From: Thermalbibacter longus
Lineage (GTDB): Bacteria; Chloroflexota; Chloroflexia; Thermomicrobiales; Thermomicrobiaceae
Direction of reading: 5' to 3'
NCBI RefSeq assembly: GCF_023806485.1
Contig: NZ_JAMSLR010000003.1
Location: 62,001-126,000 of the forward strand
DNA: 64,000 nt
Shown here: positions 10,288-16,748 of the stretch, piece by piece
Numbering within the stretch: the stretch's first letter is position 1
Layout: every line of letters begins with the position of its first letter
Notes under the pieces: model-generated
What the model saw: only the letters and a program-made list of their open reading frames with translations
Database searches by the model: none
What the model was told of the DNA's origin: nothing
Translations under genes and position numbers: made by a program

Positions 10288-10740
10288 ATGCGGGCGCTGA
10301 TCCAGCGCGTCAGCCAGGCGTCGGTGACGGTCGAGGGTCGGGTGGTAGGGCAGATCGGCCCTGGGCTGCTGGTGCTCGTCGGCGTCCGGCACGGGGACGA
10401 CGCCGGGGCGGCGGCGTTGCTGGCCCGGAAGGTGGCGCATCTCCGCATCTTCGAGGATGAGGCGGGCAAGATGAACCGGTCGGCGGTGGAGCTCGGGCTG
10501 GCAGCGCTCGTGGTCTCGCAGTTCACGCTCTACGCCGATGTCCGCAAGGGTCGGCGGCCCAGCTTCATCGACGCTGCCCCGCCCGAGGTGGCCAGCCCGC
10601 TCGTCGACCGCTTCGCTGAGGAGCTGCGAGCTGCGGGGCTACGCGTCGAAACCGGCTGCTTCGGCGCCCATATGCAGGTGGCGCTCGTCAACGACGGCCC
10701 GGTCACGATCTGGATCGACACTGACGACCTGCGCGGGTAG
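10288..10740 (+). CDS. dtd: D-aminoacyl-tRNA deacylase
   Basis: 150 residues, the usual length. The N-terminus [15 protein letters not shown] is characteristic, and the two active-site motifs are intact: SQFTLYAD near residue 75 and NDGPVT near residue 138. The enzyme hydrolyses D-amino acids and glycine from mischarged tRNAs. It lies 58 bp after ispF on the same strand and is probably the last gene of that operon. Confidence 0.95.
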
Positions 10741-10925
10741 CCCCAGCTCCCGAGGAAGTCCGAGGGGGCCCAGCTTTGGGCGCCAGGGCCAGCTTTCGGG
10801 CGGCACACGCAAGCGCTGTTGTCAGCTAGCCCTTCCGAGAGCATCGCTTCTCCTGCTCACTGTTCCTCTGCCGGCGGGGAGGTGCAGTCTAGGACTTCCG
10901 GGCCGGTGCGCTCGGCTCGATGCGA

Positions 10926-10934
10926 TGCTACACT
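10926..10934 (+). promoter_or_regulatory. Possible extended -10 before the zinc-ribbon/MutL-like operon
   Basis: TGCTACACT matches the extended -10 seen at 7819-7827. No clear -35 is visible, as expected for extended -10 promoters. It lies about 80 bp upstream of the GTG at 11016, in an otherwise featureless 275-bp gap after dtd. Confidence 0.4.
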
Positions 10935-11015
10935 GTCGTCCGAGGTCGACCACACGACGTTCCACAGTGCCGGCTCACCCAGCGGCAGCGAGCTGGCCGG
11001 ATCGGGAGGAGTCTC

Positions 11016-11816
11016 GTGTACTGTTCGCAGTGCGGTTCCCGTAAGGAGCCCGACGAGCTCGCCTGTGGTATCTGCGGCTATGCGGCGCTGAGCAGTCCGG
11101 GGGACCAGCGGTGCCCGGCTTGTCAGGAGCCGGTCGGCAATGACGACCGCTACTGCCAGGCATGCGGCGCCAGGCTTCCGGAGCGACCGGCTGAGGCAAT
11201 GGAGCCCGCGAGCTTCACCGTCGAGGACGAGCTCGCGGTCGACCCGGGTGAGTTGCCTGACTGGCTGCGCGAGTTCGCGCACGAGCAGGAAGCCGGACGA
11301 CCGGAACGGGCTTCGGAGGAGCCGTCCCCGGCCTGGCTCTCGGCGACGCGCGGCGAACTCGCCGGTGACAGACAAGATGAGCCGGCGCGTTCACCCGAGG
11401 GCACTGGCCCCCGGCCGGACGATGCCGACGTCCTGCAATTCATCGACGAGCGAGATCTGCCCGAGTGGCTGCGTGAGCTGGAGGTCGAGACGCCAGTCAC
11501 GGCGGAGGTGCCCTCGGAGACTCAGCAGGAACAGCGGACGACGCTGCCGCCGCCGGCTGTCTCCCGCGCCTGGCTCGTACCGGAGAGCGGCGACGCGGAG
11601 CGCGAGACGGTGCCGGCGTTCCAACCGCTGGCACCGGTGCTGGCCCAAGTGTCGCACGGACCGGCAGTGGCGACAGCGGAGCGTCCATCCCAACCAGCGC
11701 CGGTCGAAGAGCCAGCGGGGGCAGCCCCGGCGAACTGGTTGCGTCGAGTCTTGCTCATCCTGGTGCTCATCATGATCGTGCTACTCGTCGTCTACGTCGT
11801 GGTCTTGAGCCGATAG
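11016..11816 (+). CDS. Zinc-ribbon membrane protein of unknown function
   Basis: 266 residues. Two zinc ribbons occupy the first 60 or so residues (CSQCG...CGICG and CPACQ...CQACG). A long acidic, proline-rich, probably disordered region follows, and a C-terminal membrane helix (VLLILVLIMIVLLVVYVVVL) anchors the protein with the ribbons in the cytoplasm. The linker repeats a short module (LPDWLREF, LPEWLREL) that could be a peptide ligand. The start is the GTG at 11016 after GGGAGGA. It is followed 12 bp later by the MutL-like gene. The function is unknown; a scaffold or sensor partner of the downstream proteins is an inference. Confidence 0.75.
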   Translation: MYCSQCGSRKEPDELACGICGYAALSSPGDQRCPACQEPVGNDDRYCQACGARLPERPAEAMEPASFTVEDELAVDPGELPDWLREFAHEQEAGRPERASEEPSPAWLSATRGELAGDRQDEPARSPEGTGPRPDDADVLQFIDERDLPEWLRELEVETPVTAEVPSETQQEQRTTLPPPAVSRAWLVPESGDAERETVPAFQPLAPVLAQVSHGPAVATAERPSQPAPVEEPAGAAPANWLRRVLLILVLIMIVLLVVYVVVLSR

Positions 11817-11828
11817 GGGGCAACGGGA

Positions 11829-13580
11829 GTGGTACGCAAGGTGTCGGCAGAGACCGGCCAGCCGGCGACGCAGCGCCGGGAGCGCCGCGTGCATGCAGCG
11901 GTCGCGATGCACGCCGACCGGGTAAGGTGCCGGGCCACGCTATTCGACCGCGTCGAGCGGGTCCCGCGCCTCGTTGCCTCCGCGGTAGCACCGCCGGATC
12001 CATCCTCCAGCGCTGCCGAACTGGCAGGAGCCAGGGCAGCACTGGCTGCGCTGGCGGAGGAGGCCGGTCGCGCCTTCCAGGAGGGCGCGAAGCTGCTCAT
12101 CCCGCGGCAGGCGCTCGGTGACGGGGCCGATATCTATGTCCTCACCGGGCTTCCGAAACCACCACTTCCGGTTGCCCTGATCTCCATCGGGCCAGACCAA
12201 ACGCTTTCCAGGCTGCTCGCGAGCGCGCTCAGGAGTACTCCGATCCGGCTGGCCCAGCTCCGCGTCAGCGAGCAGGCGGGCACGAGCCGCCCTTCGGCGG
12301 TTGCCGTGGAGCAGTGGTTGCGACAGGTACGTCCCGGGGTGATCGTGCTGGCCCATGACAGCGGCACGCCCGACGAATGGGCCACGGTGTTCGACGGGAT
12401 CAGGGGGCTGGCGGATGACGCGGAGGCGCCAGTCCTGGGCCTGGTCGTCGGGCCGGAAGCGCACCAGGAGCAGGCCGCTGAGGCGATCGGAGATCAGCTC
12501 GAGCTGGTCGGAGTCGATCCTAGCGCGCATGAGACCGCCTCCGTCACGCTGGCGCTGACCACCGAGCTGCGCGACCGGTACAAGGATGCCGTCCGCCAGT
12601 CGCTGGCGGCACACCAGCTCGGTTCGATCCCGTTCGTCGATCTGGTCGAGGCGCTCGAGCTGAGCATGGCGTTCACGCACCGTCGCACCGGACAGAGCGC
12701 GCTGCTCGTCCATATCGATCAGGGAATGCTACTGATGTGGACGCACGACGGGCAGGCGGCGACCGCGTTTTATGCTGAGCGAGACCTCGGCCCCGGTGCT
12801 GCCGAGCTCTCGCGCATCGCCCCGGAACGCATCGCTCGCTGGCTTCCCACGCAGTATCCCCTGGAGTCGTTGACCGAGTGGCTCCTCAACCGTTCGCTCA
12901 GGCCACTCGCAGCCCTGGAGACCCGTGAGGATGCGTTGATCGCAAGCGCGGTATTGCGCGAGGCGCTGGCCGACGGCCTGGGTGATCTCGGGCTGCAACC
13001 CCCGGCCGACGTGCAGCTCGTGATCGCTAGCTCGTGGTTCGCCGAGTTGCCACCGGCCCTGGTCGCGCTCCTGCTTCTCGACAGCGTGCAACCGCTGCCG
13101 AGCAGAGGGCTCGTCACTCTGGCGCTCGACGACGTGGATCTGTTCGCCGCGGCCGGCGCGCTGGCGACACTGCATCCGGGATACGCGGGCGCGGTGATGG
13201 AGCAGGACGCGCTGATCCCGCTGGCGCACTGCATCGTCGTCAGTGGGGAGGGCGCCGAGGGCGCGCTGGCCGTGCGTGGGGAGTTGCGGGTCGACGGTGT
13301 GGGGCAGCGATTCAGCGTGCCGTACGGGAGCCTGCATGTGCTTCGTCTGCCTGAGACCGGGTCGATCGAGCTGAGCCTGGAACTCGAGCCGGGGTTCCGG
13401 GTTGGGGCTGGAGAGCCGGGGAGGAGGGTCGAGCTCAGCGGGGAGTCAGGGTTGAGCTGGGCGAAGCTGGGTCTGCTCATCGATGCCCGGGGCCGGCTGC
13501 TCCGGTTGCCTGATGCGACCGAACTCCGGCTGGCGCGTATCGCCTCCTGGCTCGCTGACCTCGGCTGGCAAGTGCGCTAG
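11829..13580 (+). CDS. MutL/GlmL-like protein (glutamate mutase L-related), divergent
   Basis: 583 residues. The central stretch FVDLVEALELSMAFTHRRTG, followed by SALLVHIDQGMLLMWTHDGQ and YPLESLTEWLLNRSLRP, resembles the MutL/GlmL family. Those are ASKHA-fold proteins found beside adenosylcobalamin glutamate mutases, and uncharacterised versions are common in Chloroflexota. The usual N-terminal phosphate-binding loop (DIGSTTTK-type) is not apparent: the protein begins with an Arg-rich segment and VALISIGPDQTLSRLL. It may be a degenerate, non-ATP-binding member. No mutase subunits are nearby. It sits between a zinc-ribbon protein and a lipoyl-like protein in one operon. The function is unknown. 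Confidence 0.6.
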   Translation: MVRKVSAETGQPATQRRERRVHAAVAMHADRVRCRATLFDRVERVPRLVASAVAPPDPSSSAAELAGARAALAALAEEAGRAFQEGAKLLIPRQALGDGADIYVLTGLPKPPLPVALISIGPDQTLSRLLASALRSTPIRLAQLRVSEQAGTSRPSAVAVEQWLRQVRPGVIVLAHDSGTPDEWATVFDGIRGLADDAEAPVLGLVVGPEAHQEQAAEAIGDQLELVGVDPSAHETASVTLALTTELRDRYKDAVRQSLAAHQLGSIPFVDLVEALELSMAFTHRRTGQSALLVHIDQGMLLMWTHDGQAATAFYAERDLGPGAAELSRIAPERIARWLPTQYPLESLTEWLLNRSLRPLAALETREDALIASAVLREALADGLGDLGLQPPADVQLVIASSWFAELPPALVALLLLDSVQPLPSRGLVTLALDDVDLFAAAGALATLHPGYAGAVMEQDALIPLAHCIVVSGEGAEGALAVRGELRVDGVGQRFSVPYGSLHVLRLPETGSIELSLELEPGFRVGAGEPGRRVELSGESGLSWAKLGLLIDARGRLLRLPDATELRLARIASWLADLGWQVR

Positions 13581-13597
13581 TGGATAGTGGAGCGGCG

Positions 13598-14752
13598 ATG
13601 GAGAGACCACTGGTCGAGCAGGTGCCAGCGCTGACCCGGGATGTTACGCTGCACATCGAGCGCCGTGCCGCGCTGCCGGGCGAGGTGCGAGTGCCGGTTG
13701 GCGCTCGGGTCGAGCCCGCAACGGTGGTGCTGTCAGCGCCGTCGAGCGTTCCCCGCCCGGTTACCGTCCATGTCGCCCGCGAGCTGGGTCTGTCGCCTGG
13801 GGTGGTTCGGCGGCATCTCACGCGCCCGCTCGGAAGCCAGGTCACGGCTGGCGAGCCGATCGCCTCCGCTCGCCGGGGATTGCGCACCGCCCAGGTGACC
13901 GCTCCGATCACCGGGCAGCTCGCCGAGGTCGACGAGCAGCTCGGCACGGTGACGGTCACGCCCGCTGTTGCCTCGGTCGAGTACGCCGCGCTGGTGCATG
14001 GAGACGTCATCGAGGCCGATGAGGCGCAGCGGGTGACTATCAAGGCGAGTGGAGATCGCGTCGCGGGAGCTGTTCTTCTGGGGAAGGAAGTCTACGGCCC
14101 GCTGCGTGTCCTCACCGATCGCCCGGATCGCGAGCTGCCGCCGGATGCGATCGACGAGCGCTGCCGCGGTGCGGTGGTCGTCGCAGGCATGACCGTGAGC
14201 AGCGCGGCGTTGCGCCGGATGGCCTCGCTCGGGGTGGCTGGCGTCATCGTCGGTAGCCTCAGCGCCACCTCGATCCAGGCCGTGCTCGGGATCAGTGGTT
14301 CCGATGCTCAGGCCGACCTCTGGGCAGCGCGGCTGCTGCATGGATCCTGGTCAGGGGGCTTCACCGAAGCACCGGTCAGCGTCCTGGTGACCGAAGGGTT
14401 CGGCCGGCGGCCGATGGCCCGGCCACTGTTCGACGCGCTGGCCACGCGCGAGGGACACGACGCTGCGTTACTCTTCGCCAGCAGCATCAGGGGCGAGACG
14501 CGACCCGCGTGCCTGATCACCAGGGCGGGCGCGACTGGTGGTCGCGAGCCAGTCGCTGTTCCAGTGCGAGACGGCGTGCGTGTCCGTCTCACCGATCCGG
14601 GCAGGCTCGGCCAGGTCGGCGTCTGCCGGGGCGACCCGGTGCTCGATCTGCGGCTCGACGGCGTGGCGCGCTGGGCCGTCGTGGTCGAATTCGACGATGG
14701 CGCGCGCCGGCTCGTTCCGCTGGCCAACCTCGAAGTCCTGGTGGAGCCCTAG
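13598..14752 (+). CDS. Conserved protein with lipoyl/barrel-sandwich-like N-terminal domain
   Basis: 384 residues from the ATG at 13598 (GGAG 5 nt upstream; an in-frame GTG at 13580 touches the previous stop). About residues 75-125 (PLGSQVTAGEPIASARRG, then APITGQLAEVDEQLG) look like a barrel-sandwich hybrid domain as in biotinyl/lipoyl carriers, without a clear modifiable lysine motif. The middle (CRGAVVVAGMTVSSAALRRM, GVAGVIVGSLS) and a C-terminal small beta-barrel (DDGARRLVPLANLEVL) are unassigned. It forms the end of the trio with the zinc-ribbon and MutL-like genes. The function is unknown. Confidence 0.65.
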   Translation: MERPLVEQVPALTRDVTLHIERRAALPGEVRVPVGARVEPATVVLSAPSSVPRPVTVHVARELGLSPGVVRRHLTRPLGSQVTAGEPIASARRGLRTAQVTAPITGQLAEVDEQLGTVTVTPAVASVEYAALVHGDVIEADEAQRVTIKASGDRVAGAVLLGKEVYGPLRVLTDRPDRELPPDAIDERCRGAVVVAGMTVSSAALRRMASLGVAGVIVGSLSATSIQAVLGISGSDAQADLWAARLLHGSWSGGFTEAPVSVLVTEGFGRRPMARPLFDALATREGHDAALLFASSIRGETRPACLITRAGATGGREPVAVPVRDGVRVRLTDPGRLGQVGVCRGDPVLDLRLDGVARWAVVVEFDDGARRLVPLANLEVLVEP

Positions 14753-14774
14753 CGAGGAGAGGCGATCGACGACG

Positions 14775-14801
14775 CTGGGGCGCCCGCGGTGGGCGCCCCA
14801 G
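14775..14801. terminator. Bidirectional hairpin between convergent operons
   Basis: A perfect 11-bp stem (CTGGGGCGCCC with GGGCGCCCCAG) around a GCGGT loop sits in the 88-bp gap between the convergent trio operon and dnaK. There is no T-run on either side, so termination efficiency is uncertain. Confidence 0.55.
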
Positions 14802-14840
14802 GTCATCTCGCGCGTTCTGGTCTGCCGGGCGCTACCAGTG

Positions 14841-16748
<1,908 letters not shown>

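Follow-up and report, generated by a model that had tools for sequence, protein, structure and literature searches.

What do three closely packed genes of Thermalbibacter longus encode, and is their function that of the mutase chaperone to which the middle protein is related? We analysed a window of 64,000 nucleotides from this member of the Chloroflexota (contig NZ_JAMSLR010000003.1, positions 62,001 to 126,000 of the forward strand), in which the trio, here called P1, P2 and P3, occupies positions 11016-14752. The tight linkage seen in a first-pass annotation of this DNA is confirmed: the three open reading frames (ORFs) lie closely spaced on one strand, all have GTG starts, and the start of P3 overlaps the stop of P2 by one base. 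Judged from gene order and sequence comparison, the trio is a reduced form of a wider Chloroflexota cluster, which is very probably a conserved functional unit; for its putative complex the likeliest class of role is an envelope or cell-surface function. The cluster is membrane-linked, is found in more than half of 400 sampled genomes of the phylum, and neither it nor a function for it was described in the open-licence papers searched.

11016..11816, + strand: P1, GTG start, 266 amino acids; double zinc ribbon, low-complexity stretch with two LPxWLRE peptides, predicted C-terminal transmembrane segment
11829..13580, + strand: P2, GTG start, 583 amino acids; MutL-related protein of predicted actin-like (ASKHA) fold with eroded nucleotide site
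13580..14752, + strand: P3, GTG start, 390 amino acids; predicted barrel-sandwich, RraA-like and KOW/SH3 domains

A conserved gene cluster in Chloroflexota

P2 is present in 61 of 101 relatives, the window genome included, and in no listed genome of family f3 (families are numbered f, loci L and genomes G). In the 400 genomes of the phylum P2 occurs in 228 and P3 in 227; both are found in 212, P2 only in 16, P3 only in 15 and neither in 157. Gene order was read in 61 loci: 40 chosen from the 61 P2-bearing relatives, 20 taken from the phylum matches to cover families, and the window; the loci L065 and L073 stop at contig edges. In 51 of these loci a protein bearing the peptide motif of P1 is encoded no more than three genes upstream of P2; P3 lies directly 3' of P2 in 45, and the membrane-partner genes c4, c7 and c5 stand upstream in 25, 23 and 22, respectively.

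The fullest order, DUF6754 - multi-transmembrane protein - P1 - multi-transmembrane protein - P2 - P3, is found in L050, L054, L070, L134, L135, L136, L137, L145, L146, L147 and L148. The first-pass annotation had seen the trio alone; its conservation as a neighbourhood is borne out, and three more membrane genes join it in other families. In the Thermomicrobiaceae and in f30, f46 and f49 the locus holds P1-P2-P3 only. In f11-f14 P3 is encoded elsewhere in the genome and P1 still stands beside P2, as P1-(c4)-P2. DUF6754 (PF20539), which opens the cluster in several families, occurs in 87 of the 400 genomes and P2 is co-present in 86 of the 87. It was found in 0 of 14 control genomes, in neither the window genome nor the other Thermomicrobiaceae (f1) genomes searched, and in none of the f30, f46 and f49 genomes of the 400; the term DUF6754 was not found in the open-licence literature searched.

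A scan of genome contigs gave Bacterium HR26 and two Thermomicrobiaceae metagenome-assembled genomes as near relatives. Comparison of the window with the sister genomes L067 and L068 gave ratios of nonsynonymous to synonymous substitution (dN/dS) of 0.24 and 0.34 for P1, 0.15 and 0.14 for P2, and 0.12 and 0.18 for P3, values that indicate purifying selection on all three genes.

P1 carries repeated peptides and a predicted membrane anchor

The zinc ribbon of P1 matches DZR (PF12773) with an E value of 2.2e-7 and 31.4 bits, against a cut-off of 27.3. Its features in the window are as follows.

11022..11168, + strand: double zinc ribbon of P1, residues 3-51, DZR PF12773 match
11253..11273, + strand: P1 peptide 1, LPDWLRE, sequence motif
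11457..11477, + strand: P1 peptide 2, LPEWLRE, sequence motif
about 11748..11807, + strand: predicted transmembrane segment of P1, from hydropathy

LPxWLREL-like repeats had been ascribed to both partners of P2; P1 has two such peptides and P3 has none. Across 57 ORFs called P1, which include fragments and paralogues, [LVIM]PxWL occurs 449 times against 1.9 expected from shuffles, with at least one peptide in 51 of the 57 (P1 of L134 and L146, missed by the profile, joined the motif count by hand, and P1 of L036 was entered by hand into the locus set). The 896 other ORFs of the same loci contain only 11, eight of them in P2 tails; four P2 tails (L053, L056, L059 and L060) bear the motif. The peptides of P1 therefore exceed chance. 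Among 352 unique instances, in which the search itself prescribes P, W, L and the first hydrophobic position, the preceding residue is D or E in 62% and x is mostly A, D, P or E; after WL comes R in 45%, Q in 21% and K in 9%, and the next residue is E or D in 46%. The form [DE][LIVM]PxWL[RK] is present in 40 of 52 motif-bearing P1. The number of peptides varies from 0 to 49, the window having two, and the longest proteins reach 1616 amino acids with 49 [LVIM]PxWL in L049 and 1664 amino acids in L050.

Two transmembrane segments are predicted in 26 of the 52 motif-bearing P1, one in 18 and none in eight, and in all 44 proteins with a predicted segment every motif lies N-terminal to the first one. 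We place the zinc ribbons and the peptides on one side of the membrane, most likely the cytoplasm.

In the window's own genome the DNA pattern for LPxWLR gave 19 matches, two being those of P1, against 23 in a reversed control; there is no enrichment, and a genome-wide LPxWLR code was rejected for that genome. Six of the 17 other places were inspected and none is P1-like: they are a methyltransferase, an ORF read as a membrane protein and four short or unsupported frames.

P2 belongs to a MutL-related family of predicted ASKHA fold

Homologues of P2 align along their whole length. Window P2 has no Pfam match, MutL (PF13941) included, and none at E <= 1 with the GlmL models NF040745, NF040744 and TIGR01319. 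In alignment A1 (35 P2 members with the window) PF13941 matches 25 members at E <= 0.1, the best at 4.5e-79, and P2 of L050 reaches 178.5 bits against a cut-off of 27. In alignment A4, whose 54 P2 rows represent the window and 53 of 60 loci (L040, L057, L058, L065, L066, L072 and L073 being left out), the GlmL models match 34 members at E <= 0.001, the best at 5.6e-32.

GlmL is a chaperone for the reactivation of glutamate mutase (according to an excerpt of PMC4682846), and P2 could be a chaperone of this GlmL/MutL type, acting in the reactivation of a cobalamin mutase or of some other enzyme, with P1 and P3 as carriers; beside the shared sequence family, ASKHA reactivases are found among its structural neighbours (2d0o, Z 11.7). 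We hold this to be improbable. Where bits were printed, the GlmL scores fall far below the equivalog cut-offs: 58.2 against 475, 59.3 against 600 and 25.8 against 204 for P2 of L050, 50.9 against 475 and 25.9 against 600 for L056, and 19.9 against 475 for L142. Unlike GlmL, P2 is longer and has membrane proteins for neighbours, and in the window's branch its nucleotide site is lost in a gene still under selection. Glutamate mutase E (PF06368) exceeded its cut-off in 0 of the 101 relatives, with 20 sub-threshold matches, one of them in the window genome; other cobalamin mutases were not searched. The low GlmL scores and the PF06368 result led us to reject the more specific reading of P2 as a glutamate-mutase accessory. 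Together with the co-occurrence of the genes they support the earlier proposal of a conserved set, unrelated to glutamate mutase, whose physical complex is putative.

A search of the PDB with the P2 profile returned chains of the signal recognition particle type (E 3e-5 to 7e-5), the aligned part being about 100 residues in the middle region. Window P2 has no NCBIfam FtsA match at E <= 1, and none of three sub-threshold FtsA (TIGR01174) matches in its genome (G000) falls on P2. The fold was modelled on the relative from L056, 23% identical to window P2, with a mean predicted local distance difference test (pLDDT) of 85.4. Its top structural match is FtsA (4a2b, Z 14.2 over 254 residues), and FtsA with FtsZ peptide (4a2a) gives Z 13.9; acetone carboxylase gives 13.1, a 3-methylbenzoyl-CoA reductase subunit 12.9 and PilM with PilN peptide (5eou) 12.8. 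Foldseek returned 5l9w_B with probability 1.00 and E 1.9e-9; the VIA-align lists for the L056 P2 and P3 models re-examine Foldseek's own matches and are not independent of them. P2 is thus predicted to adopt an ASKHA fold closest to FtsA, a kinship within ASKHA that is not secure, since the Z score of FtsA leads that of acetone carboxylase by just 1.1 and that of the reductase subunit by 1.3.

FtsA and PilM are ASKHA proteins that read short peptides: the IA-IC cleft takes up the FtsN peptide in FtsA and the PilN peptide in PilM (PMC7613929, in excerpt). P2 shares with FtsA, besides the fold, a basic tail in 15 of the 54 rows (five or more K or R among the final 14 residues, in many cases with F or W, as in KRGFFRRK). 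It differs from FtsA by an extra C-terminal beta region with the signature IDARGRP, by being encoded with P1, P3 and membrane genes, and, in the window, by the lack of nucleotide loops. PilM likewise reads the cytoplasmic peptide of a bitopic partner (same excerpt), and P2 with its membrane partners might represent a distant type IV pilus-like platform, analogous to PilM-PilN-PilO, as the PilM:PilN score, the membrane-anchored partner with short peptides and the multi-transmembrane neighbours would allow. We regard this as very improbable: the gene rows contain no recognised pilus gene, though no search was aimed at pilus families, and in place of the one short tail of PilN there are zinc ribbons and 0 to 49 peptides in P1.

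The nucleotide site is eroded in the window's branch

The motifs of the P2 nucleotide site and the family signature lie at the following positions.

11904..11942, + strand: eroded phosphate-1 loop of P2, AMHADRVRCRATL, family form VADCGSxxTRVxL
12705..12740, + strand: eroded phosphate-2 loop of P2, LVHIDQGMLLMW, family form TVDxGxxST
13023..13037, + strand: eroded adenosine motif of P2, IASSW, family form xxGGx
13479..13499, + strand: IDARGRL, strongly conserved C-terminal signature of the P2 family, from the alignment

In window P2, AMHADR, LVHIDQ and IASSW stand in place of DxG, DxG and GG. Across A4 the first DxG is kept in 31 of 54 rows, the second in 36, both in 28 and neither in 15, on a strict count (eight f11 rows have E for the first D). 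The rows with neither are the window, L034-L039, L041-L043, L067 and L068 (f1 and f2, families of the window's order), L045, L149 and L150, and in f1 and f2 both loops are gone in 12 of 12 rows. By this alignment it is the window's branch, with a few others, that has lost the ATP site, and the loss does not characterise the family: the first-pass annotation, which described a MutL-like protein without an obvious phosphate-binding N-terminus, was right for window P2, which has no normal ATP site by its sequence, and does not hold for the family. The IDARGRP signature is almost unchanged across the A4 rows, loop-less ones included. As the signature is kept and dN/dS is low, the loss of the site is not a loss of function, and P2 of the window's branch appears to be a pseudo-ATPase under purifying selection.

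Two f8 genomes have P2 divided among two or three overlapping ORFs (L057 6755-8780 and L058 7830-9494), and one match has an internal TGA.

The P1 motif resembles FtsZ tails

FtsZ binds FtsA and other proteins through a conserved C-terminal peptide (PMC8669495, in excerpt), and the P1 motif [DE]-[LVI]-P-x-W-L-[RK] resembles the FtsZ tails of the phylum, [DE]-[IV]-P-x-F-L-R. In all 20 P2-bearing genomes chosen from outside the window's order, FtsZ and canonical FtsA exceeded their cut-offs, and in 19 of them the best FtsZ ends in [DE][IV]PxFLR; five second FtsZ copies were read, one with DIPAFMR, one with SAPPFLR and three with neither form. In G098, for example, the FtsZ tail LDIPPFLRGR exists beside the P1 peptide EHLPPWLRN.

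This likeness within the same genomes, and the presence there of both division proteins, would suit a P1 that mimics FtsZ tails so as to recruit, or compete for, FtsA or other tail readers, the complex being a regulator of cell division. The window genome speaks against it and makes it unlikely. It has no FtsA match over cut-off; FtsQ is followed by FtsZ with no FtsA gene between them (G000:C34:219458-220438, L194), and the FtsZ tail has the sequence EPSILRFLRDR. P1 nevertheless retains both LPDWLRE and LPEWLRE. Since the peptides are kept in a genome with an altered FtsZ tail and no recognisable FtsA, their reader should be a protein that is still present, namely P2 or P3.

FtsA exceeded its cut-off in 0 of 21 genomes of the Thermomicrobiaceae (f1) and in 6 of 61 relatives overall, some of the genomes being incomplete. 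In genus g2 a partial FtsA-like match adjoins FtsZ.

P3 and the choice of a peptide reader

The AlphaFold2 model of P3 has a mean pLDDT of 91.5, and its three parts resemble known domains with modest Z scores of 7.6-8.8.

13742..13972, + strand: predicted barrel-sandwich region of P3, residues 55-131, RnfC, Z 7.9
13985..14527, + strand: predicted RraA-like region of P3, residues 136-316, RraA-type entries, Z 7.6-8.8
14552..14749, + strand: predicted KOW/Tudor/SH3 region of P3, residues 325-390, best Z 8.5

The barrel-sandwich-like domain noted earlier finds moderate support in the first part, which resembles the N-terminal domain of RnfC (Z 7.9). Since the structure tool itself cautions that a Z near 8 may reflect a mere common arrangement, we take the P3 domains as hints of folds. 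Sequence profiles gave weak matches to Spt5, L24 and RNA polymerase beta', and no single solved chain in the match lists spans all three parts together.

We tentatively propose that P2 reads the P1 peptides, [DE]-[LVI]-P-x-W-L-[RK]-[ED], as docking motifs, as their likeness to the FtsZ tails bound by FtsA suggests. They might instead be read by the KOW/SH3 domain of P3, or by another protein, with P2 doing something else, for example switching the membrane subunits by means of ATP. P3 co-occurs closely with P2; moreover, the four P2 tails that bear the motif themselves would suit a receptor other than P2, and in the L056 P2 model, a cis case with two PDWL in the tail, there is no confident docking (pLDDT about 55 for the first motif and about 43 for the second). 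We consider this alternative somewhat doubtful. In f11-f14 it is P1, not P3, that adjoins P2, and because the P1-P2 linkage outlasts the P1-P3 linkage we favour P2 as the reader.

A proposed membrane-associated complex

On the proposal that P2 reads P1, the trio would be the form taken in the window's branch by a membrane-associated complex that extends through the phylum. P1, at the membrane, would present docking peptides and P2 would read them in the manner of FtsA with the FtsZ tail or FtsN, and of PilM with PilN. P1 may act as a multivalent receptor that gathers several P2 (two sites in the window, as many as 49 in other genomes) and links these to the membrane partners; P3 and P2 would form a soluble core. 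P2 would be switched by nucleotide in lineages with intact loops and would retain no more than a scaffold role in the window's branch. The mechanism is of a known kind, for a cluster that is itself undescribed in the literature searched. If P2 does read P1, the peptide-reading actin-fold adaptors FtsA and PilM would gain a further member whose partner is unusually multivalent, and the window's branch would demonstrate that nucleotide is dispensable for an adaptor of this kind. The fuller proposal, of a further dedicated reader system beside FtsA and PilM in much of the phylum, in which P1 with up to 49 FtsZ-tail-like peptides recruits P2 into a multivalent membrane scaffold or filament coupled to membrane subunits, one branch having a pseudo-ATPase and no recognisable FtsA, is speculative and in our view rather unlikely.

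Several observations weigh against these proposals, in addition to the cis model and the narrow structural margins given above. The P1 motif shares about five positions with the FtsZ tails and has W, not F; in the window's own order the FtsZ tails are of another form, for example EPAILRFLRER and ESSIIRFLRER (L154-L190). The P3 domain of predicted KOW/SH3 type is a rival receptor. P2-P3 occurs without a recognisable adjacent P1 in L045, L139, L144, L150, L151 and L152, P1 of L136 and of L149 lacks the motif, and window P2 lacks the basic tail. The sampled genomes are related, and the Fisher value for P2 and P3 is not an independent test. Finally, eight of the 52 motif-bearing P1 have no predicted transmembrane segment; five of these (f30, f46 and f49) have basic-aromatic tails, for example KRSFLDVIRSWFPH or KKRGGWRRIFGR, two from f8 have polybasic tails and one is a fragment. 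Membrane attachment may be kept in such proteins by other means.

The short basic-aromatic C-terminus of the P1 proteins of L140, L141, L142, L143 and L153 resembles an amphipathic membrane anchor.

Surroundings of the clusters and of the trio

An anti-phage defence role was rejected, as seven proteins gave just two weak PADLOC matches (E 0.043 and 0.089), and phage families were rejected with a best PHROGs E value of 0.042. No sigma-70-type promoter or terminator was found in a scan of 10700-14900.

A small gene of 81-106 amino acids lies just upstream of DUF6754 in L134, L137, L145, L147 and L148; four of the five have no Pfam match at E <= 1 and that of L145 has one far below cut-off. The gene after P3 in four loci (L134:7941-8507, L146:7941-8414, L147:7645-8229 and L148:12373-13101) encodes a Pro/Thr-rich protein with an N-terminal transmembrane segment, LPxTG and a C-terminal transmembrane segment. 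Among the three loci scanned with the LPXTG_anchor model, the matches in L147 and L148 are below cut-off and L134 has none.

In the window, the same-strand genes upstream of the trio encode a PIN/TRAM protein, IspD, IspF and D-Tyr-tRNA deacylase (Dtd). Downstream, on the opposite strand, lies DnaK, beside a gene that we take, by reading and without a search, to be GrpE.

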